Of a stretch of 64,000 nucleotides of DNA, positions 1-54,711 are shown piece after piece; position 1 is the stretch's first letter; every line of letters starts with the position of its first letter. Below the pieces are notes generated by a model. That model made no database searches. It saw only the letters and a program-made list of their open reading frames with translations, and was not told the origin of the DNA. Source of the DNA: an uncultured Oscillospiraceae bacterium (GTDB taxonomy: Bacteria > Bacillota > Clostridia > Oscillospirales > Oscillospiraceae); the NCBI GenBank assembly GCA_950075865.1, contig CATMVA010000002.1:125053-189052 (forward strand), given 5' to 3'. The translations under genes and the position numbers were made by a program.

Positions 1-3000
1 CCGTGGACCTTGCCGTTCACGTCAATGGTCAGCACGGTGTTGGAGCTGGCCGACAGGGCAATATAGTTGCTCTCCCCCTCGGCGTAGGTCGGACCCACCA
101 CGGCGGCGTTCACAGTGCCGAACTGGCCCTGGTCATAGCCGCCGTTGGTGCTGGCGTTCTTACCGATGTTCAGCACGTCGCCGCTCCGGGTCAGGATGTG
201 GGTGGTGTTCTGGTCTGCCACGATGTCGTAAGCCTGAGCCCAGGAAGGCAGGCGGAGCCGCACCGGTCCAACGGTCACATTGGTGCTCTCGTTGGTGGTG
301 TTGGTGATGTCCAGCTTGCCGTAGGCGAAGGAGCCCATGCCGTAGACGTTGCCCATGCTGTCCAGCAGCAGGGCGTGGGTCTCGCCGGCGGCGATGTCCA
401 CAATCTCAGCTCCGTCAGGCAACACCTTCTCCAGCGGCAGGTTGGTGGGGCTCTCCAGCCACAGATAGTTGTCGATATAATCGTTCACCGGCTTGAAGCC
501 CAGCTGTCCGTGGGCATTGTCACCCCAAACAAAGACCTTTCCGTCGGTGGTGAGGGCCAGGGTGAAGGAGGCTCCTACCGCGATTCGGGACACGGTCAGC
601 TCATCCGCATCCAGGGGATCCAGCTTGAAGCTCAGCTTCTTGGGCGAGGTAGCAGTGATCACAGAGCTGTCCCGGCCAAGGCCCAGACGCCCGTTCTCAT
701 TGCTGCCCCAAGTCCAGACCGTACCGTCGTCCCGCAGGACCACCGAGAACTTGTCGCCCATGGCCACCTGAGGATAAGTGATGCTGGGCGTGTCCCCGGC
801 TTTCTCGGGCAGAGGCATAACATTAAGTTTAAAGAATCCGTAATATGTCTCTCCGTCATCAGCCGTGTACTCGGCCACAATGTAGGTCACACCGAAGGTC
901 TTGGCGGTGACCGTCACAGTCTTGCCGTCGGCCGAGATGGCGATGTCAGCCACCTCGGGATCCAGGGACTTGTAGCTCACCTGGGTGGCGTCGGTGACGA
1001 TGTTGTTGATGGTGGCGTTGATCAGGTTGAACCCGTCGGCCTTGATAAGCTGGAACAGCTCGGCATTCAGGGTCATGGACTCTTCCTTGAGCATGGTGTA
1101 CTCATAGTCCGTGAGCTTGTTCTCCCCGTTCACGGTCTCCATCAGATTCATGGTCAGCAGCTTCTTGTCCACGCCCACCTGGAGAGCCTTGGAGGTGCTC
1201 TCCCCGGCCAGGACATTCTTCAGAATGCCCAGCTGGTACTCGCTGTTGGAGCCCCAGGCCCAAACCGTGCCATCCTTCTTGACGGCCAGGCTGTGCTTGC
1301 CGCCGGCGGCCACAGCAAAGACGTTGCTCAACCGGTCGGTGACAAGGATCTTGCCCTTACAGTCCTTGGTCTTGGTGCACTCGTGATTGGGATTGGCCGC
1401 GTCGTTGTACTCCTCAGCGGTGTAGATGGCGCCGCAGACACTGCAGTTGTAATTCTCCACGCTGTCCTCCACCGTGGTGGGCACAGCGCTGTCCACCGAG
1501 GCGTCCTTGCCCCAGGTGTAGACCTTGCCGTCGATGCCCAGTGCGGTGATGTGGCTGTCCGCGACAGAGACCTCCATGACCTCCACGCCCAGGCTGACCT
1601 GGCCGGCGGCCGAGTAACCCTGGTTGGCGGTGACGGCGGAGAGGTCCTCCCCTGTCACCGGGTTGGAGATAGGCTCATAGTTGCTCCCGGTGCTCTCGGC
1701 CTCCCGGCCCAGCTGGCTGCTGGAGTTTTCGCCGAAGGTCCACAGAGTTCCATCCTTGCGGATGATAGCGGTGGTATTGCCGCCGGCCGCGATCTGCCAG
1801 GCGTTGTCCACCGTCACCTGCACGGGCGCCACCTTCTGGGTCATGTTGGCCCAGACGGTCCCGGAGGCGTTCAGCGCCTTGCCCACATTGGTGGTGGGCC
1901 GGCCGTTGCCCAGCTGGCCGTAGCTGTTGTCGCCCCAAGCGTACACAGTTCCGTAGCGGTCCATGGCCACAATGTGGGCGTCGCCGGCCGCCACCGCCAC
2001 GATATCCCGCAGGTAGGCGGAGGATTCAGCGGTGGAGGTGGTGATGATAGCCCCGTCCACATAGCCACCGGCCTCGGTTCCCTCGGGGTGCTCGTTGACA
2101 TTGCCGGAAGTCCAGGTGTAGTTGTAGTTCAGGTTGGCCTTGCCGGCGTACACCCGGGTGGGCAGCTCGATACTGGCCCGCTGCTCGTGAGCGTAGTCGA
2201 TATGGCCGTTCATGTCCACATAGTTGCTGTAGCCCGGCGGCGGGGAAGCCAGATAGTGCTTCAGCTCGTCCTCGCTGTCGGTCCGGTTGATACCCAGCAC
2301 GCCACGGGTGTTCTTGCCGAAGGTGTAGACAAAGCCGTTCTTGTCCACACACACCGAGAACCGGTCGCCGGCGGCGATGTCCACGATCTCGTGGAGATAC
2401 TCACAACTGGTCAGAGTGCCCGTGACGCCGCCCTCCGTGCAGCTGTCGCCCACATTGCCGGTGGTGTAGAGCTTGCCGCAAGCGTCGCAGACCAGGGCGC
2501 CGGACTGCTCGCCCAGGCGGACCCTGACGGGCTGATAAGCGGTAGTCTTGGTCCTGCCGTCGCCCAGCTGGCCGAACTCGTCGCTGCCCCAGGCGTAGAC
2601 ATAGCCGTCCTTACTGAGGGCCAGCATGTGGTCGGTACCCACAGCAATCTTGATAATGCCATCCAGATAGTTCTCCCCGTCCTCAGCCAGGACCTGAGCG
2701 GGCACATCGCTGAAGCTCTGGGCGGTGCCGGGCAGGTAATCGTTCATGCCGGTGCCGTCCAGCCGGTTCCGGCCCACGCCGGTACCCAGCTGACCGTTCT
2801 CGTTGCTGCCCCAAGTCCAGACGGTGCCGTCGGACATGAGGGCGGCCGAGAAGCTCTTGCCGGCGGCCACCATGGGCGTAGCTACCACCGAGGTATCAGC
2901 CTTGGCGGCGTTGCCGGCGGTGAAGGTGTCCACGATCTTCTCGTCGTCGGTATGGCGGTGCTCCATCTGAATGCGCTTCCACACCTGGCCCAGACGGTCG

Positions 3001-6000
3001 TTGATGGTGATGACCGACTCACGGTAGCGCTCGTCGGAGGTACCCTGGTAGACGATCCAGTCCTCCTTGGTCACGAAGTCGGCGTTGGCCGAGGTCAGGG
3101 TGATATCCTCCACTTTGCTGGTGGAGTTAGAGCTGCTGTAAAGCAGGTTGGTATAGAAGTGGTCGTGACGGTAGACCGTGTTCTTATCCACCACGAAGAT
3201 CTGGTCCCCTGTCAGGGTCAGCTTGCTGGGCAGCGGGTTTTCAGCGTCAAAGTGGTATTTATCATCCACAATGACCACGTCCTCCATATCGGGAACCATG
3301 ACAGCGGACATGGAGAAGATGGCGGGGGCGAAAAGCTCGGCCAGGATCTGGCTGCTCTCCTCCTTATTGGCGCCGTTCACCAGCTGGTCAAAGCTGAACA
3401 TGCTCAGCAGCTGAACAGTCATCTCGGCCGCGGTTTCGGGCTCCTCAGCCAGGATCTCCTGGATCTCCTCCGCCAGTCTGATGAAAGCATAGGAGAGCTC
3501 CAGGTTGGAGTCAGCGCCCACGGGCACAGGCGTCAGGGCCCGCTCGCCGCTGACATTGCTGCCCATCTGCCAGGCAGCGTTGGAGCCGGTGGCATAGATG
3601 CCGCCCTGAGCGGTGAGGAACAGGGAGAAGTCGGGACCGCCGGCCACCACGCCCTTGTAGTCGCTGGCTCTGTTGCTCATGGCGTTGCCGCCAATGTACA
3701 TCGCGCCCAAATTGGTCCGCTCCTGGGCGGTGTAGGAGTTGTAGACAGTGCCGTCGCCCAGCTGGCCGCTGGTGTTCCGGCCCCAGATATAGGCTCTGCC
3801 CTCCACCGTGACCGCCATGCCGTGGTAAGCGCCGGCGGCGATGTAAGCTACGCCGGTCAGCTCGGTCATGTCGTCCTTCTTCACGGTCCCGGCTACGGTG
3901 CCGTCGGCAGCCACGCCCCGGCCAAGCTGGCCGTAGCTGTTGCCGCCCATGCTGTACACCTTGCCGTCACTGCCCAGAGCCAGGGTGAAGTCGTTGCCCG
4001 CGGCCACGGCCCGGAAGTCAACACCGGGCACCGAGAAGCCGGAGACATTGCCATTCGCCAGGTAGGCGATCCGGCTGCCGTCGGGGCTGATGGACATATC
4101 CTGAGCATAGGTGGACGTGGCGCTCCAGCCCGAGCCGGAGGGCGTGTAGACCTGACCGCCCGAAATCAGGCGATAGGCGCTGCCGCCGGCGTAAACCGTG
4201 CTGCCCTCGCCCATGGCCTCGCCGAAGGGTCTGGCGTAAGCCACTGTGTTGCCCTGGCCGTCATTGACGTGGTAGGGGGCGCCCCAGCGGTAGGCCTGGC
4301 CTTCGCTGTCCACCGCGATGCCGAAGTTGCTGCCGGCGGCGATGGAGACGATATTGCGCAGGAAATAATGGTTCCGGTAGCTGTCCTCCAAGGAGACCTG
4401 GACGGGCACCATCTGCTTGCCGCCGATGACGCCGTTGCCCAGCTGGCCCTGGCTGTTGTCGCCCCAGGCCCAGACCGTGCCATTACCCTTCAGGGCCACG
4501 GCGAAGCCGTCGCCCGCCACCAGCATGGGCTGGGTGAAGGTATAGGTCTCGGGCGTATCGCCGGCGTTGGGCTGCTCGTCGTAAGGCTTGATGGTCAGAG
4601 TGACCTTGCGGAAAGCGCCGCTCTTCCGGTCGGTGACCGTGATAACGGCCACGCCCACAGCGTCCTTCAGCGGGGTGATGCGGAACTCATTGTCGCTGAT
4701 CTTGGTGATCTCCACCAGCCAGCTGTCGGTGGTGACCGCAATGTCCATCTCGGTCACGGCGCCGCCGGCGTTGAAGACATTTATGCTGTTGGCGGTCATC
4801 ACGTTGATGCCCGAGAGGGTCAGACTGCCGTTGTTGTAAAGGTCCACAGCGGCGGCGTCGGTGGTGTTGCCCACGTTCATGTGGAGCTGGGCGGCGGTAG
4901 CGCCGGCCAGATTCACCTGAGCGGGTATGCTGACGCCGGACACCTGGGTGCTCTGACCCAGCTGTCCCTCCCGGTTGCTGCCGGCAGCCAGAATGAAGCC
5001 GTCGTTGCGGATCATAACGGTGTGGTCCTCGCCGCCCGCAATGGCCCGGATGTCGTCGGCGTAAACGTTGGGCATGGCCACCGTCTTGTTGGCCTGGGCT
5101 CCGTCGGCCAGCTGGCCGTTGGCGTTGCCGCCCCAGGCGTAGACCTTGCCCTCAGCGGTGATAGCGAAGGAACTGTCGGCGCCGGCCGCAATGGAGGTCA
5201 CCTTATCCAGGGGCCTGGTCACCACGTTCTCGGTGGTCAGGACCAGAGTGGGATAGTAGTGGTCCATCTCGTCGCCGGTACCCAGACGGCCATAGTAGTT
5301 GTAGCCCATGGCCCAGACATTACCGTCCTCAGTGAGGAGCAGGGTGTGGGCGTCGCCGGCCGCGATATCCACCACCCGGTGGTCGTGGCTGAAGGCGTAG
5401 AGCTCCTCGGCCAGGACCTCGCGGACGTAGTAGTCGGTGCGGTGGTCGCCGGTGTCGCCCCGGCCCAGCTGACCATAGTCGTTGTCGCCCCAGGTGTACA
5501 CGGCTCCGCCGTAAGTAAGGGCCACAGCGTGGCGGCCGCCCGCGGCGATCTTCAGCACGTTGTCCAGCTTATAGGGGGTGTTGATGGCAGACTTCTGGAA
5601 GCCCAGCTGCTCGTCGCTGCTGGAGTAGCCCTGGACCTGGACGGGAGAGGGCACGTCCGCGGTACCGGACACGCCCACCTGGCCGTACTCGTTGTTGCCC
5701 CAGGCCCACACCTGGCCGTTGTTGTCAATGGCCAGGCTGAAGGCGTCGCCGGCCGCCACGGTGCGCAGGTTGCCGAAGCGGACCCCCTCGGTCAGCTCGG
5801 TGAGGTGCCCGCCGCAGACCGTGATGGCAGCCTCCGTGTCACCCTCACCAGGCACCATGGTCTCCTTGGTGCAGCGACCACTCTCAGGCATGGTAGTGTA
5901 GCTCTCGCCGCAAACGTCGCAGACATAGCCGGCCACGTTGGTGCCGATGACCACCCGCTGGGGCAGGGACACGCTGTCGGTGTCACCGGTGCCCAGTTGG

Positions 6001-9000
6001 CCGTCCTCGTTGTAGCCCCAGACCCACAGGTAGCCCCTGTCGTCCACCGCCAGGGCGTGGAACTGACCGGCGGCGATGGCCTTGATCCTGGGCACGTAAC
6101 CCAGGTTATCCTCCTCAAAGAGCACCTGGCCGGGCTCATAGGTGCGGTCGCTGAACAGCTCCCGGCCCAGCATACCGTTGGCGCCATCGCCCCAGCTCCA
6201 GACTGTCCCGTCAGCCTTCAGGGCCAGGGTGAAGCCATCGCCGGCGGCCACTACGGGAGCGTAGTGGTTGCCCGCCTCGGCGTCACTGCTCCGGTCGGAG
6301 AGCACATGGATGGTCAGGATGCCGATGGTCTCCACCCGCTCGGTGGCCCGGTTGTTCCGGCGCACCAGGATGGTAGAGGTGCCGGTGGCGCCCTCGTGCG
6401 GCGTCACCACGCCCTCGGCGGACACAGCCACCACAGCGTCGGAACGCACCAGGGTGCCGTCGGCGTCGAGGATGTAGTATTCCAGATCCTTCTCCTCCAC
6501 CGTCTGCTCGGTGGGATAGAGGGTCACGGTAAAGCTCTCGGGCACGGTGATGGTCTTGCTGTTACCCACATTCAGATCCAAGGTAGTTCCGGGCTTGTTG
6601 TCCATCACAAAGCTGGTGGTCTTGTCGCTGAGCCGGATGGCGGGCAGGTGGGCCACCGCCCGGACGGGCAGCTCCTTGGCGCTCTCGTTGGGCCGGGCGC
6701 CGGCGACAAGCTCGGCGTCGCCGTCCTTGTCACCCAGCTGGCCATAGTCGTCCTGGCCATAGCCGTAGACCGAGCCCTCGTAGGTGACGAACATCATGTG
6801 GTCGTTGCTGGCCGTGACCCCGATGGCCTTGACCATGGGATCGGTCTCCTCCACGGGATCGGTCAGAGTGGAGATCATACCGGCAGCCTCGCCGGCGGCC
6901 ACCCTCACCAGGTCAGCGCCGTCCACATCCAACTGGGCGTAGACCCCGCCGTCGGTATCCAGCAGCGCCAGGGCCTGCGCCCGGGCGGCGATCTGGTAGA
7001 TAGTGGCGTCCTCGTCCATGCCGTCCACGTCCAGCTTCTCAGCCAGCCGCTTGTCAGCGCCCTGATAGCTGCCCCAGACCCAGACCTGATTCTCGTCGTC
7101 CAGTGCCAGGGAGAAGTTGGCGCCGGCGGCGATCTCCAGCACATTGGTCAGGGCCTCGGTCTCACTGATCATGACCTTCTCGGGCCGGTTGGCGTTGGGA
7201 TCCAGGGCGTAGGTCTTACCGTTACCCAGCTGGCCCAGGCTGTTGTCGCCCAGAGTCCAGACCGTGCCGTCCCGGCGCAGGATGGTGGTGTGATCCTCGC
7301 CCAGCGCCACATCCAGTACGCCGCTGAAGCGGACCTGCTCACCGGTGAGGAAGTTGCCCTTGTTCATCTTATCCCGGCCATTCCGGCCGTCGGCGGTGGA
7401 GCCCCACATATAAAGGCTGCCGTCCTTGGTCACCGCGGCGGCATGGCTTCCCTTGGCCGCGATCTTCTCAACACTGTTGATGTAGGACTCGATATGCTCG
7501 TTGCTCTTCACGTCGCTGCCCAGAGACTTGGGCGTGGCCGAGAAGGTAGTCAGCCGCTGGAGCACCTGCTCGGGGGTGCCCAGCTTGTGGTCGGTCCGGG
7601 TGTCGTTGCCCAGCTGGCCGTCGGCATTGTAGCCCCAGGCCCACACATCGCTGGTGTGGGTCACGGTCTGGGTCACGTCGTCCACCGTCTCGACTTCCTT
7701 CAGGATCAGCATGAACCGGTCGCCCATGGCGATCTGGGTCACGCCGGTGAGGAACCCGGTGGGATCGTTCTCATCCCGCACCTGAGTGGGCACGTTGATG
7801 GTGGTCTGGTCGTAGTCGCTGCCGCTGGCCAGGAAGTCCAGAGCCCTGCCCTGCTGGCCGGTCAGCGCGTTGTGGCCCCAGGTCCACACCGTGCCGTCGG
7901 CCCGGAGGGCGGCGGTGAACGCCTCGCCGGCGATGACCACCGGCATGGCGATAGCGCTCACATGGTTGCCCGCCATGGCATACTCGGTACCCATGTCGGC
8001 CTTGCCGAAGCCCACGGTGATCCGCGCCATCTCCTGCACGGCAGTCCCGTCCACGGTGGGCAACTCCACAATGATGTCCAGCTTCATGCCGGCCACCGCC
8101 ACGTTCCAGTCGATATTGGCCGTGGCAAAGGCGGGTACGCCGTTGGCGTCGTTCTCGATAGTGAACCCGGTGATGGCGTTGGGATTGCTGGAACGGAAGC
8201 GCAGCCGCTTCTTCTGGTCGTCGGTCAGGCTGGCCCAGGCGGCCTGGATCAGCACGTTGAAGTCGTCGATCTTCTCGATGACGATCTCGTTGATATCGAT
8301 ACGCACAGTCTCCCGGTTGGCCTCGTTATCCACCTTCAGAAGAATGTCGTAAGGCGCCTCGTAGGTCCGGTTCAGGATGGAGGTGGCGTCCACGATCACG
8401 TCCACCTTATTGAGCCGCAGCACGCTGGTGCTCTCCATACCGAAGCCCACCTGCTTGGGCTTCACGGTATTGGGCAGCTCATCCACATCGTAGCCCGAAC
8501 CCAGCTGGCCTTGGGCGTTGTCGCCCCAGCTCCACACGGTACCGTCGGCTTTGATGGTCACCAGCGCCGTGTCAGTGAGAGCCAGGTCGTAGGAGTTCCA
8601 GGGCAGCAGCTCCTCGATGCTGCCAGGCACCACACCGGTGCGCTCGTAGCCGCTGTTGGGCGTGATCACAAAGCCGTTCGTCGCGGTGACCGTAATGGGC
8701 ACGCGTCCGCCGCTTGCGTTCCGGCCGTAAAGGGTGCCGTACTGATAGGTGGTGCCGCTGCTGCTCATGGCGGCGGACAGAGCACCGTTGGTGGCCACCT
8801 GAACGATCTTCTCATCCTTGTCCGCCACAGGCACATCCACCTCCACCGGCCGCCTGACAAAGGTGTCGGTCACAGCCGGGGAAACTTCCTTGTTGGTGTT
8901 GTCGCCGAAGGCGAAGACCCGGTCCCGCTTCCCGTCGGCGTCAGCGTGAGTCGAAATGGTCACGATCTGATCCGCCAGGTTGCCGGCGTTCAGCTCCACC

Positions 9001-12000
9001 ACCTGGTCCAGATACTTGCCGATGTAGTTGTCGTCCGTCTCCTCGGCCTCGGCCCGCAGGACCAGCATGGGCGTACGCTGGTAATAGCTGGCCCAGCTGG
9101 TGCCGCTGTACTGATTGTTGGCAGTCATATAGTAGAGCCACCGGCTGCCGCCCTTGTCGCTGCCGTCATAGCCCCGCTCCTGGTTGGTGTTGACCCGGTC
9201 GGTGTCGCCCAGGTCATAGCTCCAGCTCCGGGAGGTCTCATTGTACACCGCGCCCCAGGTCATGACCTGGCCGCTGGCCAGCAGAGCGGCCGAGAAGCCC
9301 CGTCCGGCGGCGATCTGGATCACGCCGGTCAGATACTGCTCCTTGGCGTTGGCCTGGTTGTTCACCAGGCTGTCCCTCTCCACCTGGACCGGAGTGGAGT
9401 AGTAACTGCTCCGGTACCGGGTACCCAACTGCGAGGTGCTGTTGTTGCCCCAGGACCACACGTTGCCGTAGGCGTCCAGGGCCAGAGCGTGGTCATAGCC
9501 GGCGGCGATGGCCACGATGTCGTGGAGATAGGTCTCGCCCAGCTCGTTGGTCTCACTGGCGGCCTGGGTGCCCCGGAGCACCCGTACCGGGAAGAACTCA
9601 TGATGGTCATGAGCCTTCCAGGCGGTGGGATTGCCGTAGCGGTCCCAGGCGATGGCCTCCCACCAGGGCGTCTTGTTCTGACCCAGGATGCCGTTGCCGT
9701 TGTAGCCCCACATCCACACGGTGCCGTCGGCGCCCAGGGCCATGGCGTAGTTGCTGCCCGCGGCGATATCCACGATATCGGTCAGGTAGCCCATACCGCC
9801 CTCGCCCCGGAGCTGCACGGGGGAGATCTCATAGTTGTTGGGGGTCTTGTTGGCGCCATAGCTGCCATAGCCCACGCTCACATCGGAATCGGTGTAGTTG
9901 TAGTTGCCGTCAGCCATCTGGCCCCAGCGGTTGTCGCCCCAGCCCCAGACCGTGCCGTCGGCCTTCAGGGCCAGGGCAAAGCCCACCCCGTCGGTGCTGG
10001 TTCCATAAGCCACCTTGGGAGAGGTGGTCCGGACCACCTGGGCCCCGTCCACCACGGGGATGACCTCCAGGCGGAAGACACGGGTAGTGTCGGTGGGAAT
10101 GTGCCGCACCAAAATGGTCACGGTGCCAAAGGCCCGGCCATCGGCCGCCTTCACCAGGAACTGCCCATTGGCAGTATCCTTCTCTACCGTGGCGATGGTG
10201 GGATTGGAGGAAAGGATCTCAAAGTCATCCATGGTCCGCTGGTCCACGCCCAGCTTTTCATAGCTGTCGTTGGGCACGCCGTAGGGCCGCACCTTGGTGG
10301 AGAAACCGGGGATCAGGAACCGCTCCAGGCTGTCCAGAGAGATGGCCACGGTGTCGCCCTCGGTCGCCACCAGCTTGCCCTCGTTGTCCAGCCGGGCAGT
10401 GGTGCCGTTGATTCTGACCGTGCTACCGCCAAGGCCGTTCTCCACATCCTGGAGAACCGTCTTTGTCTGTGTTCCGGTGACGGACAGCTGGCCCAGATAC
10501 AGGGAGTTCTGGTCCTCGGCGCCCACCCGGACGGGGGTCTCAGCGCTGAGCAGCTTGAAGTTGCCCATGTTGCCGCCCCGGGCGGCGAACTCGCTGTCGG
10601 TGCCGCCGATGGCTCTGGCGGTGGTGGTGCCCACGCTCCAGACGCTGCCGTCGGTGCGGATCATGGTGGTCCGCTCCCCGGTCAGGGCCATGGTCACCGC
10701 CATGCTGAAGGCCTCTTCCCCGCCCATATGGCTGGTGATGGCGGTGGAATACTGCTCCACCGTGCCGGCGGTGCCGTCATAGTTCCGGCTCTCGCCCTGA
10801 GCCATGACGGTGTACTCGTCGGTGTCCACCGTGGTCCCGGTGGTCACGCCGGTGCTGAACTGGCTCACCGTCTGGTTGGCGGCGCCCCAGCTGTAGATCT
10901 GGCCCTTGTCGTCGATGATAGCCGAAGCGTCGTCGCCGGCCGCCATGGACATGATTTGGATGTCGTCGAAGGCGGACAGCCGCATGGGCTCGTTCACGAT
11001 GGCGATGCCGAAGGCCGGCGTAGTCTCGGTCCCCTCCACATACTTCTGGGACTGGATCAGCTGTCCGCTGGTGTTGTCGCCCCAGCCGTAGAGATGGTTG
11101 CTGCCATCGAGAGCCAGGAAGTGGTCGTCGCCGGCCGCGATGTCCACGATACCCTGGAGATAGTGGGTGCCGTTCTTCTGTTCGCCGTGGAGCACCTGGG
11201 TGGGATAGATCCGGCTGACGGTGGTGCCGTCGCCCAGCTGTCCCTTGTCGTTCCGGCCCCAGGCATAGACCGTGCCGTCGGCCAGCAGGGCGGCCACGGC
11301 GGTATCCGCGGTGGCCAGCTTCACCACCCGTGCGGTGCGGTTGGGGGTGGCGGTGGCGGCGGTGGCGTTGATGGCGTTGGAGCCCAGAACGGTGGCCGCC
11401 TGGCCGCTGGTGTCGCCCAGGTGGTCGGTGCCGCCGGGGCCAAGGACCATGGTGGGCACGGTGGCGTACAGGCTGCCCGTATTGGTCCAGTCCACACCGT
11501 CATAGCGGTACACGCCGTCGCCCGCGCGCATAAATTCGGGGTTGAGAAGCTTCCGGCTGGCGATGTAGGAAGTGTTGCTGGAGTAGGAGCCCTGGTACCA
11601 CCAGCTGTTATAGGCGGTCGTCATATGACCGGTGATGAAGTCCAGCCGGTCGGTATATTCCACGCCGCTCTGGATATCGCTGCTGGAGCTATAGTAGCCA
11701 CCGTTGTTGCCCCAATAGTACACGTTGCCGTCCCCGGACAGGGCCACGGCGTAGTCCCGGCCCGCGGCCAGGGAGACCGCGTTGCTGATATTGCTGACCT
11801 TTGTGGGGAAGTAGGAACCGGCGTCATTGATGCTGTAGCTCGTAAAGCCATACCCATCATGGTCATGGCAACATACATACACGTTGTTATAGGTCCCGTT
11901 GCCCAGCTCGCCGTGCTCGTTGTAGCCCCAGGCGTACACATTGCCGTCCTTGTCCATGGCATAGCTGGTGAAATCGCTGGCGGCGATGGCCACGATGTCG

Positions 12001-36000: not shown

Positions 36001-39000
36001 ACCACGCTGTAACCGTCGCCGGTCGCAATGAACAGATTCTCCCGAACGTGAGAGGGACTGCCCTCATTGGAAATGTTGTCAATACCGGAAGAGGTATCGC
36101 CTCGGTACATCTTCACGGGCACATCATAACGGCCGCCGGTAATATCATTGCCCATCTGGCCCCGGGCATTGCTGCCCCAGCCCAGCACGGCGCTGTCGTA
36201 GATGGGCCGCATGTTGCTGGCCCGATACAGAATATCCGAGGTGATAGCCAGGCTGTGATCAGAACCAGCGGACACCTGCCGCACACCGACGAGGTAGGGC
36301 TGGGTAGCGTCGGTGTTGTCCTGATGGTTCAGCACGATCTGGGGCACCCGGGTCCAGTCGGTCACGTTGCCGGCGCCCACGCCCAACTGCCCCTGGCTGT
36401 TGTCGCCCCAGGCCAGAGCGTAGGCGTTCATGGCCTTTCCATTCAGGGTGCGCAAAACGGCCGCCAGGGCGTAATCCTTACCCGCCGAGATCTGGAAGAC
36501 ATTCTCCAGATAGTAGTTCTTCTTGCTGAACTCGCCAGCAGCATCGGGCATAGCCTCGTCAAAATCGGGGTCGATAGAGGCCTTCTCCACCTGCACGGGC
36601 ACCCAGGATCCTCCAGCAGATTCCATGCCCAACTGGCCCTTGTTGTTGTCACCCCAGGTCCACACGGTACCATCGGCAGTCAGTGCCATGCTGTTATTGC
36701 CGTCAGCCGCGATCTGAATAACATTGGACAGGTACTTGTACTGCAAGGTATCCTCAGCGGTTTCGCCGTCATGGAGGAATTGCTTGCCGCCATTCATACC
36801 AGTCAGCACCTGGACAGGGCCGTATCGGGGCAAATCGTCGCCTACGCCCAGCTGTCCCCGGCTGTTATCGCCAAAGGCCCATACAGTACCGTCGTCCGCC
36901 AGAAGCAGGGTATGATGGTCACCCGCGGCGGCAGCCACAAATTTGATCTCATTGATCCGGGGCACAGTTTCATGGGGATAGCTACGTCGGTCAATGGTAA
37001 TGCCAGCGGGGATATCCTCGTCGTCAGGCACATAGCCGCCGGTCTCCCGGTCGGTGACATCCTGGTACCGCTGCTCCAAATACTGGGTCAGATTGGAGGG
37101 CCGGGCCACAGAGTCGTTATAGCTGAAGTTCAGGTCGTATACGTTCTCGTAGAGGGCGTTGGAGGAATCATCCCAACTGTGGATAATGATCTTCTTTAAA
37201 GTATAGTCAGAGCTGTACTGGCCCAGCTGGCCATAGGTATTGGAGCCCCATGTCCAGACTGTGCCGTCGGACTGGATGGCCACGAAATGGTTCTCGCCGG
37301 CAGCCACATAGACGATGTCATGGAGCAGGCTTCCCTCCTCGTTGGCAAAGTTCACCAACTGCGGGATCATATAGGGCTCGCTCTCATTCACAGGCCGGCC
37401 ATTCTCGCCATAAGCGGTGACGCCCCAGGTGTACACATCGCCGTTGGCCTTTAGAGCGATGGAACCATTCTTACCCGCCGAGACCATGGGGGTCACAAAG
37501 CGGGCCTCAGCCGGGTTCACGCTCTCATCGGTGCTGATCACCGAGACCACAAAAAGGCTGACGATGTTATCATCCGCATCCACCACAGCCACCGTGGTGG
37601 TACCGGTCTTCTGGAAGCGGGCATAAGTCCGTTCGTCGGCCGCGGCGATGGTGCCGGTGGCGTTGTCCACCGAGACCACACTCTCGTCGTTGGAGACCAA
37701 CCGGTAGCCTGCGGCGGAGAGACTCAGGGCGGAATCAGTGGTAGCCGTATCCCAGAGGTTAAAGCCGTGGTACTCATGGTCCTGCTTTACGGTGACCCGG
37801 ATCCGCTCACCGTAATAGAAGGACAGCCGGTTGAAGCCCTGGAAGACAGGGCCGTTCCCGGTTCCTGTATTGGTAAAGTCAAACTCCAGCGTGCGGTCAG
37901 CCTTGGGGCCCACCACACGGGGCTCCAGGGTAAGCTGCTGCACAGCGGCGGCGGTAATGGTCCCCTCCACGCCAAAGGCGCCCATGCCAAGATAGCCCCG
38001 GGTGTTGTCGCCTACAGCCAGGAGGACGCCGTCATCGGTCATGACGTAGGTCCGGTTCCCGCCGGCAGCTACCAGCGCGGCATGGGTCAACAGAGCGGTG
38101 CCGTTCACATTCTTACCGTGGGCGGCTTCACCCTGGATGATATAGGTATTGTCATTGGCGCCGGTGCTGCCGTTGCCCAGCTGACCGCCCAGATTGGTGC
38201 CCATGGCATAGACCTGATCTATCTGGCGGATCACCGTATGATAGATACCACCATCCACACCGGTCACATTGGCAACGGGGGTCTTGTCCCCCTTCCGGGC
38301 CAGGACCAGTGAAGTGGAGATGCCGGTAGAACAGCCGGTGCCCAGCTGGCTATATGTATTGTCGCCCCAGAGATAAGCATAGGCAGTATAGTTGTTGTCG
38401 GCAGTGTTCTTCTGATAGGCCACGGCCATGGCGTGATCCCGTCCGACGGCGATGTCCACCACCTGGCTTATGCCGCGGCTCCGGGCGTTCTCGGGCAAGG
38501 GATACTCACCGTTGAAGACCTGGACAGGTACCGAGCTGTTCACAGTCTTCTCGTTGCCCAGCTGCCCCTTGTCGTTGGCACCCCAGGCCCAAAGCGTGCT
38601 GTCCTCCATCACAGCCAGGGAGAAGCCATTCCCGGCGGCGATACGCTGAACGTGCTCCAGATCGTGCAGGCCCTTCCGGTCCTGAACGGGATTGGCATAG
38701 TAGTGGACCTTGGTATCGTTCAAGCCCAGCTGGCCCCGGTCATTGTTGCCGGCGGCGTACAGCTTGGTCTCCTTGTTTTCGTTTTCAGTCAGGAGCAGGA
38801 TATGATCAGCGCCGGCAGCGATGGAGATAACGTTCTCCAGCGCCACCTCGCTGGTGGTCCCATCATTTTCATTCTTCACCGGGACCACGATCTGCTCCAC
38901 AGTGGGCTTCTTGTCGCCCATGTTCTTGTAGGGATACACCCGCCAGGAATGGCGGCAGATGGTACAGAACCAGACCTGGAACTCCCACTCCTCCTCGGGA

Positions 39001-42000
39001 ATGTTGTTCTGCTCCCAGGCGTCGTCATAAATCTTGACAGGTGTGACCACTTTACCCTCGCTGTTCACACTCTCACAGCCATGGTCGTTGTGATCGCCAC
39101 CCGCCTGACCGCAGGCACACATAAAGGGATCGTTGGAGGTCACGTTCCAGACCAGACCGCACTCCTCACAGCGCCACTCACCGGTGTAGGCCTTCCGGCT
39201 TTCATAGGTCACGTCCATCTCAAAGACCTTGCCATTGGCGTCAATGATAAACCGCTCGCCCTCAGGCAGATCGGCGGGCGACTCGTTGGCAGCGGCATTA
39301 TAGGCTACATAGTAGCCATTGAAGCCGCCGCTGTCACGGTAGATATAGTTTCGGCCCTCATAGGTGTAGCCGTCCATGTCGCCAGTGTCGCCATTGACAT
39401 GCTGAGTTCCCTCAGCGTCCTTCTGTTCATAGGTGGGTACCCAGTCGGGGGTATTGGGCTCCCGGCCCTCGCTGTCGGGCAGGGGCTTGGTCTCGTCGTC
39501 CACCTGATGCTGGGCGCCGGGGATAAACTTGATGGTGTCAGGAATGGGCTTATCCCACACCTCACCGGTCAGGTGGCTGCTGTCCGCATTGCAGTTCCAG
39601 TTGGGACAATTTTCGGGCACGTAGGTATCCGGATCCAGGACCACCTCGTGGCTCAGGCTGGTAACGCCGTTGAGCTCACCGATGATCCAGGCATGACCGT
39701 TTTCATCCAACAGCAGGGTAAAGGTATCCCCCGCGGCAATATCCACGATCTTTGTAAAGGGTTTCTCGTTGTTGGTCATCTGGACAGGATAGCTCCGGCT
39801 GAGGAAGGTCCCGTCGCCCAGCTGACCGTAAGTGTTGTCACCCCAGGCCCACACAGTACCGTCAGCCTTCAGGACCACGGTATGGTTCAGGGCAGCGGCG
39901 ATCTTGGGCTCGGTGAAAGCGCCGTCCTTGCGAATGCTCACCTTGATGACGGCGTTGATGTTGGTACTCTGGCTGGTAGCCAGAATATAGGTGGTGCCGT
40001 AGGTGCCGCCAAACTGGAACTCAGCGGCGGTAGCGGTGGACGAGGTCTTCTTCAGAATATTGCTGTCCAGCACGTTCAGAACCAAATCGCCCGAATCAAT
40101 GTCGGCAGGCTTCACATGGGTGTGGAGGTTGAAGCCCATATCGATCTTGAATACGGTAGGATCGGTCAGGGAGATAGTCAGCTGCTCGCTGTCCTTCATC
40201 ACGATCTCCCGGTCCAGAGCCACCAGCGTGCTGCTGCCGGGGGTGATGTAACCGTAAAGCTCCAGCGAAGAGAAACCCTCCCGGCCCACCCGGACGGGAA
40301 TATTGCTGTCCAGGTCGGTGAAATCGCCCAGCTGGCCCAGGCTGTTCACACCAGCGGCGTACACATCGCCGTTATTAACGCTGAAGGCCATATGGTCACC
40401 GCCCACGTCGAAGGACCAGGCGATCTGCATATAGGTGCTGTTGTTCTCATTGGCGGTGCCGGCGCCGTCCACGGGCTTATTCATGGCGTTCATGTTCCGG
40501 ATCTCGACTTCGATGACGCCGCTCTCGGGGTCCTCCACAGGCACCGAGACCGTCTCGCCGGTGCCCATCTGACCCAGAGTGTTCTCGCCCCAGGCCAGCA
40601 GGGTCAGGGGTCCGGGCAGACCGGTATCGCCATCCTTCACAGGATAAGGAGCTTGGACCAGGGTGGAGTTTCCGCCGGCGGCCACGGCCACGCCGCCCCG
40701 CTCCACCATCAGCACAGGTAGGCGACTCATCTCAGCGCCGTTCAGGTCACCGATCTGGTTGCTGTCGGCCCGGCCGAAACCCCAGACAGAGCCGTTCTCC
40801 ACCGCATCCGCGGCCACAGCAACAGCGTGAGAATCGCCTGCGGCGACGCTCACGATACGGTCCTTCATCACCCGGACCGGGGTGGTACGGCGCTCCACCG
40901 GGCTGTCAGCGCCCAGCTGGCCATACCTATTGTCGCCCCAGGCCCACAGTGTCCCGTTGGCCTGCAGAGCATAGGCGGTGTCACCGCCCGCGGCAATAGC
41001 GATCACGTCAGAAAGCTTACTGCCGATGGAGCTGGGGCTGTTGCCCTTGTCCACCTGGATGGCCACAGGGGACCAGGTCAGGTCGGTACCGCTCTGGCCC
41101 AGCTGGCCGCAGTCATCCCGGCCCCAGGCATAGACCCGTCCGCTCCGGCTCAGCGCCAGAGAGAAGTCCTTGCCTGCGGCGACAGAAACAATGGGATCAT
41201 CCACAAATTTACCCACGGTGATCTCCACCTGACCGGTACCCAGAGGAATGTCCCCCTCCATCATCACCTGGCCGGGATAGGGATCCAGCCAGCGGTCAGT
41301 GACGGTGGTGGTCGTGATATTGCCGTCGGGATCGACCCTGGTCACATCATAGGTATACTCGGAGGTCCGGCCCAGCTTGCCTGTCTGGGCAGTCCGATTC
41401 TTATCGTCCCAGATCGGGGTGATCTTCCCCTCACCGTTATCCTCCCAGTATGCGTTGTCGCCCCAAGACCAAACTTGGCCATAGTTATCCACCGCCAGGG
41501 AGAACCCATCCCCTGCCGCTACGTCGATAAAGGTCACGACCCGGTTTTTCTCGTCCCGGAAAACATAGTTGCCGTCGGAATCCTTCTCCCCGGTGGCGTT
41601 CTTGATCGCCATAGGTTCGTTGACGCCGATGGGGTTGCGGCTGTATGTCGCGGCCGCGGTAGTGCCCGAGGGGATGGTCAGCAGAGGCGCGGCCTCGCCG
41701 ATGCCCAGCTGGCCGTGGGTATTGTCACCCCAGGTCCAGATCCGGCCTGCGGTATCCAGCGCCACCGTATGGCTCTGTCCGGCCGAGACCTTGGGGATGG
41801 CGGCCACAGCAGGGGGCGGATCAGTGGGCGAGGTGCTGGTGCCGCCTGGGGTCTGACCCTTGTTACCCGAGCCGGCCTCCAGCCGCCGGACGGTCACAGC
41901 CAGGACTCGGGTGTTCTGCACATCCGGATTGGTGGGATCGTCATAAAGAATGGTTACAGTTGTAGTCCCCAGTTTTCCCTTGGGCTTCAGAGTGATCAGC

Positions 42001-45000
42001 TCACTGCCGGTGGAGGAGACACTGGTAACGCCCAGGATCTCGGGATCGGCCACCACCACATGGAAATTCGAGAGCGTAGTGGTGATCTTCTCCCCATCGG
42101 AATGGAGGTTGAAGCCCATCAGATGGCTGTTGACCACATCACTCAGATCCAGAGTCAGATACTGGTCCAATGCCAGATCCTGAATGGCGGGAGATTTATC
42201 CTTGCCCGAGGCGGTGTCGTCGCTGTAATTGGCGATCTCCCGGTCGGTGCCGTTGGGCACGGTCTGCATCACCTTGTAATCCTGGATCTGAAGGATCTTG
42301 GAATCCCGGTCGCCGGTCAACACGGGCTCCTCGGCGTTCATGTGGGTGCCGTTGCCCAACTGGCCATTGTCATTGGCTCCCCAGCTCCAGACATAGTAGG
42401 TGTCCTTTACGGCTGCGCCGTGGGTACCACCCAGAGCCACAGTCAGGGCGCCCTCAAAGTAGGGGGCGCTGACGCCGTCCACAGCCACGCTCTCACTGTC
42501 GCCCTTATTTAAATATGTAGGCGTATAGGAGTAGGCCAGCGTCTTCTCGGGGGTAGCCGTATCGTCCCGGCCCAACTGGCCGTTCTCGTTGGTACCCCAA
42601 AGCAGGACGTTGTACTTCTCGCCGATAATGACGCCCGAGTTATCTCCGCCGGCCGCCACACCCGAAACCCTCTCTCCGTCCTTACCCACCGTGATCTGCC
42701 GGGGCAGCACGGTCATCTCGTCGGTGGGAGTAGGAAAGGGATCGGCATACCAGTCCAGAACGCCGTCCACCATCTCCTCCCGGAGCACCGGGTTGTAGGT
42801 CTGGTCGGCTCGGGCCCGATCGCCCAGCTGGCCGTATCCGTTACGGCCCCACGTGAGCACGCTGCCGTCAGCCAGAAGCACGATGCTATGGTTGTCACCG
42901 GCGGCAATATCCATAGCGCACTGGACCTGTCCCTCCTCAGCCTTGCCGGGGATCACGGTCACGGGCACGTGATAATTGAAGAGAACATCAGTGGCATCCC
43001 GGTCATAGCCGGTCCCCAGCTGTCCGTAGGTGTTGTCGCCCCAAGCAAACAGGGTGCCGTCGGAGCGGATGGCCAGCACATGGGCGCCGCCGGCCGCCAC
43101 TTCCACAATGTTGGTCAGCTTCTCCGAGGTGCTGGCGCTCAGGCCCTGATACACCAGGGTAGGCGTGGGCATATCGCCCACATATTCAGGCGCCGGCACA
43201 TAGTCGGGCAGGCTCACGCCATACTCTTCCTCATAGTTGGCGGCAGCAGCCAGGTATGCCGCGTAGTTGGTGTAGTGGGTCTGATAATCCACCACCTCCA
43301 GATCCCAGCTTTGGAACTGGTCCTTGCCGGTGTAACCGATACCAAGCTGGCCCCGGTCATTCATACCGAAACTCCAGATGGCGCCGGCCTCGGTGAGCAC
43401 CAGAGAATAGCCGTCCCCGGCGTAAACCGCGCAGGCCCGGTCGCTATTGGAGCTATAAAGACTGGGAATGGGCACCAGAACCGCGCTGGTCTCAACGCCG
43501 CCCAAAGTCCCCTGGCCCAGCTGGCCGTGGAGGTTATTGCCCCAGGCGTAGACCGTCCGGGTGCCATTCTCGTCCTCCACAATGGCCAGAGCGTGGTCCC
43601 TGCCCGCCGCGATGGAAACCGCGTTCTCCAGGTAGCCGGTCCCGCACAGGACCCGCTGGGGGCTCAGTCCATCGTCGATCGTGCTGCTGCGGCCCAACTG
43701 GCCCACGCTGTTGTCACCCCAGGTCAGCACCTGGCCGTTGGTCTTCAGGGCCACCGCAAAGCTCTCGCCCACCTTCAGGTCAGGGGCGGTCCCATCCATC
43801 GGATCCCCCTTCGCGTCCGTGGTCTTATCCCGAACCAGGACCCGCAGCACCAGGGAATTCCCGCTTGTCTTATTATAAACGCGCACGGTGGTCACGCCTG
43901 TCCCGGCCGCCCGGATCACATTGGAGGAAACGACCTCCACGATACGGGTGTCGGTGCTGGTGATCTCAAAATTCTCGATGTCATTGTAGACCTCTGCGTC
44001 CTTACTCTCTTTCCGCAGCAGGAACTCGTCCACCCGCTGATCGGTGAGAGACTGGACACGCATCCGATCGCCCAGGAGCAGGGTCACCTGACGCTCGAAA
44101 GTCTTATCGGCATTGGAGACGCCGCTCGTGACTACAGATGTCGCCGCCGTGTGAGTGGTGCTGTTGGAACCCGTAGTAGGCGCGTTGTCTACGCCCGTAG
44201 TCATATTGTCCTGACCCCGGTCGATGGTGGACATCTCACCCAACTGGCCACTGGTGTTCAGGCCCCAGGTAGAGACCCGGCCATTCTCTGCCACGACTGC
44301 AGTGTGCGCAGCACCGCCGCCCACGGCGATGGCGCTGCCGCCCTCCAGCCCGGTGATCACCTGATAGATGTTGGTGCCTTCCGTGGTGTCAACCGCCGTA
44401 AACCGGTTATTCAGCATATAGGCCTTGAAGTTGGTTCCAATAGGCACACCCAACTGGCCGCTGGTGTTCATACCAAAGATGTACACCTGGCCGTCCTCAA
44501 TGGCGTTGGTGTCAGTATTCCGCTTGCCCCGGATGATCATGGAGTGGTTATCGCCGGCGGCGATGGCCACCACATCATTCAGGTCGGTGGTCAGCTTGTC
44601 GGGCATGGAGTTGGCATAGCCGCTCTCCACATCCAGCTGAAGGACACAGGCGGCAGGGACCTGCTGGGTGCCGTAGCCCATCAGTGCGGGATCGGCATTC
44701 TGCCAGCTGAAGATAATGCCCAGCTGACCATACAGGTTGGAACCGAATCCACGCACCGTAATATTATTGTTGGTATCCTGAACCATAACCAGGGTATGGC
44801 TCCGTCCCACGGCCACATCGGTCACACCGGTCATGGTGATGTTGCCCTGACTGAAGATGCTCCGGCCTACCTGACCGGTATAATAGGGCGCCGAAGGCTC
44901 GCCCCGGCCCAGCTGGCCGTATTCGTTATTGCCCCAAGCGAACAGGTTCGTGTCCTCACTCAAGGCAAAGGACTGATCCGCTCCGGCGTAGACCTTCATG

Positions 45001-48000
45001 ACGCCGGTCAGGTTGCCCTCATTTTCGCCCAGCACCGGGATCGGTACGCAGGAATAATATTCCGTGGTATCGGTAGGCTCGGGGGTCAGCTTCTGACCCA
45101 ACTGGCCCTTTTGGTTGGTACCCCAGGCATAGGCCGTGCCGCCCGAGACCGCCATGGAGTGCTCGTCACCGGCGGCGATGCTGGTAGCGCCGGTAAAGTA
45201 CTCACCGGAGCCGCCCTCCCACATCTTCACCTGTACCGGACTGCTGTAATCGGTGCGGTCATCCTCGCCCTGGCCCAACTGACCCCGGCTGTTCCGGCCC
45301 CAGGCGTAAATGTCGCCGTCGGCCGTCCGGGCCAGCACATGGTGCCGGCCCACCGCGATTTCCTCGATCAGCTGGCCGATACTCACCTGCACAGGGAAGG
45401 TGGTCATGGGCACCTCGGTCTCGCTCTTACCGATGCCCAACTGGCCGTAGGCATTGCTGCCCCAGGTCCAGACCGTACCGTCAGCCCGGAGGGCCACGGT
45501 GAAATCATCGCTGCCCTTGATAAAAGGCTCGGTAAAGTTGTCGGAATCCTTGACCACCACATTGAAAGAGCCCTTGTACTTCAGCTCGCCGCCCAACTCC
45601 CGCACAGTGGGATCCTGGACCCGGATAGTTCCCTCCGTGTTGAGCAGCCCGTTGGTAGCGGGATCAAACCGGGCGTCACCCGCCGTGGCGCCGCTCGTAT
45701 CGCGGACCACCACCATGGGATTCTCCGAAATATACTCCAGATCAATGCCGCTCAGCTCGGTCTCGCTGTAACTGTGAGAGCGGTTGCGTTCACTCAGGTT
45801 GAAGCCCACATCGTAGTAGCGGCCAACACCGTCCCGGAAGATCACGATGTACTGATTGTTGGTGATGGTGAGCAGCGGGTAAGAAACCACCGTCCCATCC
45901 TCGTTTCTCCGCTGCACGATGGGCAGCGGCTTTTCAGCGATCTTCAGAGCGTCAAGGTCATTCTCCTGGTAGAGCCCCGTAATGCTGGCGTACCGACTGC
46001 TCAGAGTGCTCTTTCCCGTGGGCACCTGGGTCAGGGGATCTAACTCCACGGTGTAGACCCAGATCTTGTTGAACACCAGGGTTTCGCTGAACTCGGTGCC
46101 GGTCAGCACGGGAACAGGGGCTCTTCCAGAGGTGGCGTCCGGACTGCCCAGACGGCCCTCGTCCGCCAGGCCCACACCCCGGACGGTTCCGTCAGCAAAC
46201 CAGAACAGGGTGTAATCCAGGCCGGCCGTGGTGCCTACCACCTCGCCGTAAAGATCCCGCATGGTCTTGAGCATCAAATAGTTGCTGTCCTGGGAGCCCC
46301 AGACCTCGCCGGGGGTAGGACCGGATACGCTGCTGGACGTGGTGGCGTTGCCGCCGTGTCCCAGCTGATGGTTGTAGTTATAGCCCCAGGTGTAGGCCTT
46401 GCCATCCTCGGTGACCGCCGCGGTGTGGCTGTTGCCCACACTCAGGGAGACCACGTTGTTGACCGCCGCGGCCCACTCCACGATCGCCGGCTTGATCACA
46501 ATGCTGGAGGCGCTCTGGTTACCCACCTCGCCGTGGGCGTTAGTGCCCCAGCCCCAGACCTGGGTGGCGCCGCTCTGGCCCACGCTGATGACCTGGACAT
46601 GGCCTTCGTTGGAAACCGTATCACCGCCCGAGGAGACCGACTGGCCGCCGGCCGCGATCTCCACCACGTTCAGTGTTCTGCTGGTGCCCCGGCTCTCACT
46701 CACACTTCTGGGAGTATCCGAACTGGACATGATGCTGGAGGCTGTATTGATACCCAACTGGCCACCGCGGTTTTCACCCCAGCTCCACACGGTACCCTCG
46801 CTGCTCAGCGCCACGCTGAAGTTACCGCCCGCGCTGATCTGAATGATTTTCTGGTTGGTAAAAACGACCTTCTGGGCGTAAGTGTAGTTCTCGTCGCTCA
46901 AGGTGGGCCCCAGGCCCAGCTGGCCCCGGACATTCCGCCCCCAGGACCAGACCTCACCGTTGGCAGTCAGGGCCAGGGAGTGGTTGGCGCCAGCCGCGAT
47001 GGCCACCACATTCTTCAGCACATTCCCATCCTGATCCACCACCTTGGTGGGATAGGGCACCGACTGTTCCAGGCTGTTGCAGCCCACCTGGCCGTTTCCG
47101 TTGGCGCCCCAGGCCCAGACCGTTCCGTCCTCATCCAGAGCCAGAGAGTGCCGGTCGCCCACCGCCACCATGGTGATGTGGTCCAGAGGTTCCTTTTCCT
47201 CCGCATCCTTGTAGATCTGCACCGGCGTCAGCACTCTGGCGGCATCTTCATTGTTCCGGGTCAGCTGACCGTCGCCGGCCACGCCCCAGCCGCTGACCGT
47301 ACCGTCGGCCCAGAGGGCCAGGGTGTGGCTGGAGTAAGCCCGCACCATAGGAATAGTGAACTTGATATCCGGGTTGGCGGGATCGGCGCTGCTCTCAGTG
47401 TAGCGCCCCGTGACCTCCAGGTTCAGCACTCGGAAATTCCCGCCGTTGTCCCAGGCGTAGACCTTGGTCCGGCCCTCGCTCTTGGCGGTGAGCTTGATCG
47501 CGTTGTCTCCCACCAGCTCACAGTCGGCCACCCGGTCATCCAGCACGCCGGCCGCCACGATATTGGTCAGGCTCACATTATTGTCTCCCACAAACCCGGA
47601 GGCCGGGATCGTCAGCGCGGAAGCCGAGGTTTCGGTACCCACCGTCATCCGAACCGTATAAGGAGAGACGGGCGGCGCCGCCGCGGCAAGGGCCTTGGGG
47701 GTCACATCCTGTTTGTCTACGTTTGTCGTCGTTTGTCCGTTTCCATTGCCATTCAGGCTTTCCGCCGGTTTCTGTGTCTGACTGTCGGACGGTGTCTTCG
47801 ACGTGTTGTCGATTTTTGTCGTCTGGTCATCGTCAGCGGGTTCAGCGGCGGTCTGGTCTCCGTCGGTCTCCGCGGTCTCATCCGTTTTGGTCTGATCGTC
47901 TGTTTTGGTCTGATCGTCCGTCTTGCTCTGATCCTTCTTGTTGTCCTCGGATACAGGCGCCGTCTTGGTGGTCGGCATATAGATGGAGTAGCCTCCCGTA

Positions 48001-49121: not shown

Positions 49122-49191
49122 TCATCGCCTCTTTCTCTTCGCCATTCCGGCGGGTTACATAGTTTCCCATACTATTGCAATGGTATCATAT

Positions 49192-49220
49192 ATTATGTCA
49201 CCAGTTAACGTAAAAATCAA
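49192..49220 (-). promoter_or_regulatory. Candidate promoter of the giant gene
   Basis: On the minus strand TTGATT (49220-49215) is followed after 17 nt by CATAAT (49197-49192). Transcription would start near 49185 and leave a leader of about 64 nt before ATG 49121. Confidence 0.5.
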
Positions 49221-49519
49221 GTCTTTTCCACAAATTTTTACACGAATTTTTCCTTGATTTTTCAATGTTTTGAGGGCATTCCGGAGCAATTCAAAATTAT
49301 TATTTTAAATAGAGGTTGTTTTTCACATTTTTTCACCGTTTTTTCCACATTTCAATTGTTCAAAAGCTCAAGGGAATTTTCTCCTTCATTTCACTGGTTT
49401 TGACCGCTTTTTTCGAAGATCGTGAGGAAGTTTGACCGCTTCACATTTATAATATTATTCTGTCAACCGAAAGTCTCTACCTTTTTTCGCCCATCATGGC
49501 ATTTTATTCAAAATTTTCC

Positions 49520-49548
49520 TTGACATTCTCTTTCGGCCGTAGTATAGT
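49520..49548 (+). promoter_or_regulatory. Strong sigma-A type promoter of the cold-shock gene
   Basis: TTGACA (49520-49525), a 17-nt spacer and TATAGT (49543-49548) nearly match consensus. The predicted start near 49555 gives a leader of about 120 nt. Within it GCCGCC (49580-49585) can pair with GGTGGC (49622-49627), followed by a T-rich run. Long structured leaders are typical of temperature-responsive csp genes. Confidence 0.75.
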
Positions 49549-49673
49549 AAGCCTGTATCTTAAAATGTAAAAATTGATTGCCGCCTGTGCCAGGTCAGTT
49601 TCCATTTTGACATACGGCTCTGGTGGCTTTTATTTTTGCAGGGGGATAACATTTTTTGGGAGGTACTTCCACT

Positions 49674-49886
49674 ATGAATCACGGCACTGTCAAATGGTTC
49701 AACAACGAAAAGGGCTTCGGCTTCATCTCCAACGATGACGGCAGCGGCGACGTGTTCGTCCACTTCTCCGCCATCCAGGCCGAGGGCTTCCGTACCCTGG
49801 CCGAGGGCCAGAAGGTGTCCTATGACACCGAGCCCGATCCCAAGGATCCCGGCAAGCTCCGCGCCGTCAACGTCGTCGCTGAGTAA
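49674..49886 (+). CDS. csp: Cold-shock protein, CspA family
   Basis: This 70-residue single-domain OB-fold protein acts as an RNA chaperone that binds single-stranded nucleic acid. The sequence begins [18 protein letters not shown] and contains RNP1 (KGFGFI) and RNP2 (VFVHFSAI), the two aromatic nucleic-acid-binding motifs. The length is normal for the family. I chose ATG 49674 because GGGAGGT sits 9 nt upstream; a TTG 18 bases earlier overlaps that ribosome site. The gene is monocistronic, has its own promoter and terminator, and faces away from the giant gene. Which csp paralogue it is cannot be told from sequence alone. Confidence 0.96.
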
Positions 49887-49895
49887 TTGAACCAC

Positions 49896-54670: not shown

Positions 54671-54711
54671 GAAGGCTCCCCCTTGCACAATATCGAACAG
54701 GTGTTGATTTT

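Follow-up and report, generated by a model that had tools for sequence, protein, structure and literature searches.

The proteins UVR8, RCC1 and BLIP-II consist of one propeller each, the scaffoldin CipA has an SLH-anchored partner, and giant proteins of Omnitrophota are reportedly treated in a 2023 preprint by West-Roberts et al. Bacterial proteins are known to reach 85,800 amino acids (aa) (PMC12057145), and 19 proteins of more than 40,000 residues have been reported from Omnitrophota and Oscillospiraceae, those of the latter (of about 40,000 residues) in uncultured gut lineages from humans, mice and rabbits (PMC13104272). Here we analyse a stretch of 64,000 nucleotides (the window) from the 2.29 Mb draft genome of an uncultured Oscillospiraceae bacterium (GCA_950075865.1; G000), which corresponds to positions C2:125053-189052 of contig CATMVA010000002.1 (C2) and whose right edge is the end of that contig. 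The window holds part of one real minus-strand gene, as supported below, that encodes a predicted secreted protein with RCC1 repeats, hereafter the giant. Its size and lineage are not new, because Oscillospiraceae proteins of about 40,000 residues are already in print (PMC13104272), but no account of its array of Ig and RCC1 domains, of the fixed order of this array or of the accompanying dockerin/SLH cluster was found in the literature searched, which covered no preprints and few subscription journals; one paper that contains both RCC1 and dockerin was listed there (PMC6083626).

According to the list of open reading frames (ORFs), the minus-strand frame runs in the window from an ATG at 49121 to position 3, contains 16,373 codons and is still open at the edge. 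It continues for about 49.9 kb past the left edge and reaches 32,858 codons without a stop before a 100-N gap (C2:75498-75597). Beyond this gap, in a different frame, there are 126 residues, comprising a linker rich in Pro, Glu and Thr and an end with a calcium loop, and then a stop ending at C2:75115. As the 100 N do not fix the length of the gap, 32,858 residues must be taken as a minimum; the true C-terminal end has been reached, because the relatives end alike, and the unseen part is limited to the interior of the gap. The gene thus occupies C2:75115-174173 (about 99 kb, 4.3% of the assembly). An ORF figure of 32,936 aa was dropped, since that translation enters and passes the gap in the wrong frame. 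An earlier note on this DNA had proposed a single minus-strand gene of at least 49 kb and at least 16,373 residues, which is confirmed at about twice that minimum length, and had placed a signal peptide at its start, which is supported by a signal peptide predicted by eye; a stop codon immediately precedes the ATG. Its view that the protein is among the largest in bacteria agrees with 32,858 residues up to the gap, although larger ones, of up to 85,800 aa, are in print (PMC12057145). It had also advised following the frame beyond the window to a stop and an anchor: the stop lies at C2:75115, after the gap, but the C-terminal end resembles an X-module-dockerin only weakly. The parts of the giant are as follows.

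1..49121, minus strand: window part of the giant, residues 1-16,373 (ORF list; continues on C2)
49017..49121, minus strand: predicted signal peptide, about residues 1-35 (by eye, from a basic start, a hydrophobic stretch and an AxA-like end; orthologue alignment)
48222..48911, minus strand: conserved N-terminal domain, about residues 71-300 (orthologue alignment, profile, model)
1152..47639, minus strand: units 1-24 of 34 Ig-plus-RCC1-propeller units, residues 495-15,990 (unit hidden Markov model, HMM; Pfam RCC1/RLD; fold of propeller 1)
3..1151, minus strand: first part of unit 25 (unit HMM)
C2:75115-125052, outside the window, minus strand: rest of unit 25, units 26-34, region without RCC1 and C-terminal end (unit HMM)

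The 34 units of the giant, each formed by an Ig (Big_2-like) domain and an RCC1 propeller, cover residues ~495-22,500, after which come some 10,000 more residues and the C-terminal end. Units were counted as matches of more than 30 bits to the unit HMM, Ig part included, merging those within 250 residues; this count replaced earlier ones made with a regular expression (13-23 starts per protein) or with a loose junction profile, which matched single blades (145 in G000). The distance between unit starts varies from 493 to 910 residues. When the genome was searched for RCC1 (150 of 216 candidates scored), at least 131 matches were obtained at an expectation value (E) of 0.001 or less and, among the matches listed, all were in the frame of the giant on C2. 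Both RCC1 and WD40_RLD are far above the curated Pfam cut-off in every 5,000-residue piece from residue 1 to 25,000, and no RCC1 match was found in the Pfam pieces past residue ~22,500. RCC1 motifs throughout the frame, as seen in the earlier note, are consequently a property of the window and not of the final third of the gene. In a predicted structure of unit 1, the one propeller modelled, the chain closes into a seven-bladed propeller. The units have diverged from each other: paralogous 400-residue chunks are 30% identical at the median of their best matches and the longest exact DNA repeat within the gene is 33 bp, unlike giant adhesins with near-identical tandem repeats.

The N-terminal domain was modelled with blocks of 69-90 in predicted local distance difference test (pLDDT) over residues 71-210; 594 of the 1200 residues in the N-terminal model are below 50. 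Its sequence profile had no convincing relative among solved structures, the sole chain being at E=0.081. A T2SS-T3SS_pil_N match at residues 526-571, within the first Ig region, is barely above the cut-off (24.8 bits vs 23). In the propeller region of G000, about 40 of 106 cysteines belong to zinc-ribbon-like inserts (CxxC ... C ... C) at residues ~4,930, 8,660, 8,860, 11,630, 15,890, 16,590, 17,120, 22,090 and 22,360, the first five of which fall in the window at about 1,450-34,340. The counts of this pattern are 10 in G000, 12 in G015, 3-4 in G010, G008 and G002, and 0-1 in G196, G114, G013 and G188, with the sequences of G002, G013 and G188 being truncated.

Among 60 genomes, the first 583 residues of the giant have matches in eight, G000 included, and the other seven are all among the 15 other genomes of the same genus; there were none in the rest of the family outside this genus (21 genomes) or in other families of the order (23 genomes). 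With an N-terminal profile, 24 of 300 genomes of the family were matched, seven of them strongly (E<=4.5e-86, again counting G000); the 17 weak matches (best E from 5.9e-6 to 8.9e-4) are limited to about the first 73 model positions and probably correspond to the signal-peptide region. Uninterrupted frames free of gaps are present in G015 (32,701 residues), G010 (34,110), G008 (37,709), G196 (32,278) and G114 (40,690, counted from the first start codon, a start 37 codons downstream being more likely). Together with G000, these five represent three genera with 33-35 units per giant: 33 in G008 and G114, 35 in G196 (one weak, 38 bits) and 34 in the other three. G010 is a single-contig complete-genome record, Oscillospiraceae bacterium CE91-St43, and the record titles of G015 and G008 place both in a single sample series. 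The giants of G012, G005 and G188 run off contig ends. The record titles of three same-genus relatives mention mouse, rabbit and water-deer material.

The order of the array is kept between these proteins. When 83 chunks of 400 residues from G000 were searched for in each relative, the matches followed the same order for 82/82 in G015, 82/82 in G010, 80/81 in G008, 81/82 in G196 and 74/76 in G114. Similarly, each unit of G000 has its best match at the same index in G015 (34/34, median identity 52.8%) and in G010 (34/34, 34.9%), and the same is true for 32/34 in G008 and 25/34 in G114. The order is also complete in G196 (34 units), where the index agrees for 14 units and is then displaced by one at the weak extra detection, and in the truncated relatives the index is shared by 29/34 (G002), 8 (G013) and 8 (G188). 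When the six giants are compared two by two (15 pairs), 29-34 of the 33-35 best matches are strictly increasing, whereas random orders give 9 on average and 15 at most. Thus, although median unit identity between giants goes down to about 32-53%, number and order are nearly kept and, therefore, the array most likely predates the split of the three genera. From these comparisons, the array has most likely been little reshuffled and little evened out by gene conversion. As the gene is uninterrupted in several species and the number and order of units are kept despite their low identity, its full length appears to be in use. Six database proteins with similar units were also compared: P0001, P0002, P0003, P0007 and P0039 (9-13 units) show no order with respect to the units of the giant. 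The sixth, P0044 (partial, 6,115 aa, 8 units, labelled as a Roseburia sp. metagenome-assembled genome, MAG), has its matches along units 16-23 in the same order and resembles a fragment of a giant of this kind, from either another lineage that has one or a mis-binned contig.

The frame also behaves as a coding sequence. Between G000 and G015, the differences at first, second and third codon positions are 0.346, 0.294 and 0.550 over 30,596 of the 32,858 codons (taken from the 3 alignment pieces, out of 62, that run near the diagonal), and the pattern is identical in every 3,000-residue block; these aligned codons demonstrate in-frame codon-position constraint on the giant frame. The guanine and cytosine content at third positions is 0.823, vs 0.834 for the nearby secA gene. 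The other five frames contain 1113, 950, 1520, 1467 and 25 stops across the gene, and the last figure equals the number of TTA, CTA or TCA sense codons in the giant (25/32,858). The plus strand of the gene carries long ORFs, the largest of which has 7,798 aa in the window; they are a by-product of the rarity of these codons and were rejected as antisense genes.

Downstream of the giant and on the same strand, three further genes (d1, d2 and d3), separated by gaps of 6-314 bp, are found in G000, G010, G008, G196 and G114 (the contig of G015 stops after d1), and the gene order shared by these genomes demonstrates that the cluster giant - d1 - d2 - d3 is conserved. Their products have 1,460-1,922 aa (d1), 3,056-3,643 aa (d2) and 3,414-5,509 aa (d3), except for a d3 ORF of 1,404 aa in G010. 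The end of d1 carries dockerin-like loops, two by pattern in 4/5, and, out of 7,992 database candidates scored for its last third, 40 relatives reach E<=0.001, no Pfam domain being listed for any of them. An internal GDVDMDG loop is present in d2 in 5/5, with a second loop by pattern in 2/5, and d2 ends in SLH domains: PF00395 reaches 62.6 bits in G000 (cut-off 20.8) and a profile of the five d2 proteins matches Sap at E=2.8e-26. No cohesin-like part of d2 was named in ten Pfam pieces or against solved chains. A loop pair near the end of d3 is recognised by pattern in G008, G196 and G114, and none in the short G010 ORF; in G000, d3 has one loop by pattern and a Dockerin_1 match of 15.8 bits (cut-off 22.9). 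The d3 of G010 (L104-L105) consists of 1,404 aa and then an ORF of 460 aa, possibly an interrupted gene. One ORF past d3 in G000 (G000:C2:22777-39108, L059), there is an ORF of 5,443 aa whose C-terminal end is SLH-like by eye.

Regarding the C-terminal end of the giant, a profile of the six proteins over the ~420 residues before the linker weakly matches the X-module-dockerin II of CipA (2b59_B, E=0.0034; 3kcp_A, 0.005; 5g5d_B, 0.028), followed by eight other dockerin chains (E=0.035-0.66). All six giants have a DxNxDGxxD-type loop and, later, a last loop such as DFNxDxxxxxxD, with an acidic or Pro-rich linker between the two in the four C-terminal ends printed. An LPXTG motif with a membrane stretch was not seen by eye at the C-terminal ends of G000, G010, G008 and G015; sortases are present in 4/4 genomes, and sortase anchoring of the giant was rejected for lack of the LPXTG end.

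Taking all this into account, we give about even chances to the reading of the giant as a chain of 32,858 or more residues, with 34 Ig-plus-RCC1 units and about 10,000 other residues, that would be secreted and held at the cell surface in a calcium-dependent manner by its dockerin-like C-terminal end. The protein would be exported through Sec and would assemble at the surface with the products of d1, d2 and d3, the calcium loops acting as couplings and d2 as the SLH-type wall anchor. The giant itself could then be a beads-on-a-string arm on a stalk, perhaps more than 0.5 micrometre long judging from usual domain sizes, that displays 34 different propeller faces and binds a variety of ligands (glycans or proteins of host or microbial origin) or fits lengthwise on a fixed partner. 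Since the propellers have each retained a distinct sequence and position, one repeated adhesive seems less likely than several ligands or a long partner of fixed form. A more specific version, which we put forward tentatively and with less confidence, is that of an addressed array: 34 propellers that have kept their own place and sequence since before the three genera split, in one surface molecule comparable in size to titin, which dockerin-like ends would join to an SLH anchor with no classical cohesin involved. Such a molecule might be a bacterial ruler or a multi-ligand reader in which both length and order are selected.

Several observations weigh against this surface-held arm. The similarity to CipA is weak, and the same list contains two EF-hand carrier chains (0.61 and 0.93). 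In the five giants without a gap, 350-490 residues separate the two calcium loops, which do not form one compact domain, and Dockerin_1 was not found in the C-terminal piece of 101 residues in G000 (0 Pfam families) or in the search of its own genome (0/1). In d1, Dockerin_1 is over the cut-off in just 2/6 orthologues (23.8 and 24.1 bits), below it in three and absent in one. The model of the C-terminal end (mean pLDDT 60.6), searched with Foldseek and VIA-align, gave Ig-like chains over about residues 5-132 of the model and no X-dockerin among the rows shown. As the Pfam cohesin PF00963 was found at E<=0.001 in 0/6 genomes, the classical partner of dockerins is missing. Additionally, frames are interrupted in the draft relatives G013 and G002, in which the next ORF resumes near the following place of the array (G002 is rich in N), and 8/15 other same-genus genomes have no N-terminal match, three of these being 93-99% complete, so that the genus can do without the giant.

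Of the other explanations, an unlikely one, albeit the likeliest among them, is that the giant is a polyprotein, a chain that is cleaved after secretion to release many propellers or pieces with independent action. Processing has been suggested before for very long multidomain giants (PMC13104272, on an earlier study), and the variable distances between unit starts in G000 (493-910 residues) would fit it; however, the unit order and number kept between genera are not needed by free pieces. We find less probable still that the giant is an arm that attacks walls or a weapon used on contact, an idea put forward for giants of other phyla, which have been read as surface weapons (PMC12057145). The M23 peptidase (PF01551) occurs in many of 52 database cousins (some of 5,975-7,860 aa), at the C-terminal end in those inspected, but no peptidase, hydrolase or toxin domain is over the cut-off in the giant (Pepdidase_M14_N, for instance, stays below it, with 13.3 vs 23.2 bits), in d1, in d2 or in the part of d3 that was scanned (4,999 of its 5,041 residues). 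A true cellulosome-like scaffold that gathers enzymes is very improbable: an X-module-dockerin-like C-terminal end beside an SLH-bearing gene mirrors the layout of CipA, but cohesins are found in 0/6 genomes and the giant has no enzyme or carbohydrate-binding domain over the cut-off. Finally, an assembly error, a decayed gene or antisense coding can be practically set aside, in spite of the N gap near the gene end and the interrupted frames of G013 and G002, given that no exact internal repeat exceeds 33 bp, which makes repeat-driven misassembly unlikely, that five relatives are gap-free and uninterrupted (one of them a complete-genome record, G015 and G008 from one sample series), and that codon-position differences are 0.35, 0.29 and 0.55 over 30,596 codons.

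The surroundings upstream of the giant comprise the following feature and several neighbouring genes.

49122..50027, minus strand: upstream intergenic region of the giant (promoter consensus matches only)

On both strands of 49000-50100, there are eight promoter-like matches vs a shuffle mean of 1.4, all of them consensus matches only. An Rfam match to the cspA thermoregulator at 49557-49933 of the window, plus strand (79.6 vs a gathering score of 78), overlaps a terminator-like hairpin of 19 pairs, and is perhaps a chance structural match. Directly upstream of the giant (window 50028-54688), a MacB/FtsX-type ATP-binding cassette (ABC) permease of 1304 aa and an ABC ATPase-like ORF are found, and G012 has a comparable permease upstream of its giant by eye. 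A dedicated export motor, in the form of a second SecA, was not seen: one SecA per genome is over the cut-off in 4/4. In G000 it is located 11 kb upstream of its giant (window 60256-63105); SecA is within ~10 kb upstream in G002, G114 and G188 (by eye in G002 and G188), and in G010 and G196 the distance is about 28 kb and 44 kb, respectively. The end of the contig carries a transposase-like ORF by eye (window 63210-63998), which is a likely cause of the contig stopping at that point.

Giant bacterial genes have mostly been met as curiosities of a single assembly, whereas the one described here is uninterrupted in several species. It can be tested at the bench by means of its gene cluster, the complete genome record of a relative and a set of defined pieces (the N-terminal domain, single propellers, the C-terminal end and the SLH partner) and, if the docking is true, it would represent a dockerin-like assembly outside cellulosomes.

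Among known systems, the closest are the ~40,000-residue Oscillospiraceae proteins from Microbiome Datahub (PMC13104272), which share the family label, the origin in gut MAGs and the size class, and are likely the same as this giant or sisters of it; section 16 of that account gives no domain anatomy, unit order, C-terminal end or neighbours. The Omnitrophota giants are also multidomain products of single genes of tens of kilobases, of up to 85,800 aa, but belong to another phylum, their length and sequence differ between orders (PMC13104272), and the sections of the source considered here mention no RCC1 array. Giant1-5 of Apilactobacillus kunkeei (PMC12863079) are likewise encoded by consecutive genes for very large surface proteins, although these have 3,000-8,000 aa and helical repeats and are different proteins. 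The CipA of Clostridium thermocellum may resemble the giant in its X-module-dockerin II (weak C-terminal profile match at E=0.0034), and an SLH-bearing gene is nearby; by contrast, here there is no cohesin in six genomes, the loops are split by a linker and no enzyme partners were seen. Some database proteins of 5.5-7.9 kaa (P0001, P0003, P0007 and P0039) share with the giant both the RCC1 blades and the type of Ig linker, in some cases with dockerin or cadherin-like domains, but differ from the giant in having 9-13 units, no positional match and, by eye, different N-terminal ends. Three of them (P0003, P0007 and P0039, ~7.2-7.9 kaa) end in an M23 peptidase and apparently form a second large propeller family. 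Lastly, where UVR8, RCC1 and BLIP-II are single propellers, the giant strings 34 Ig-plus-propeller units together in one chain.
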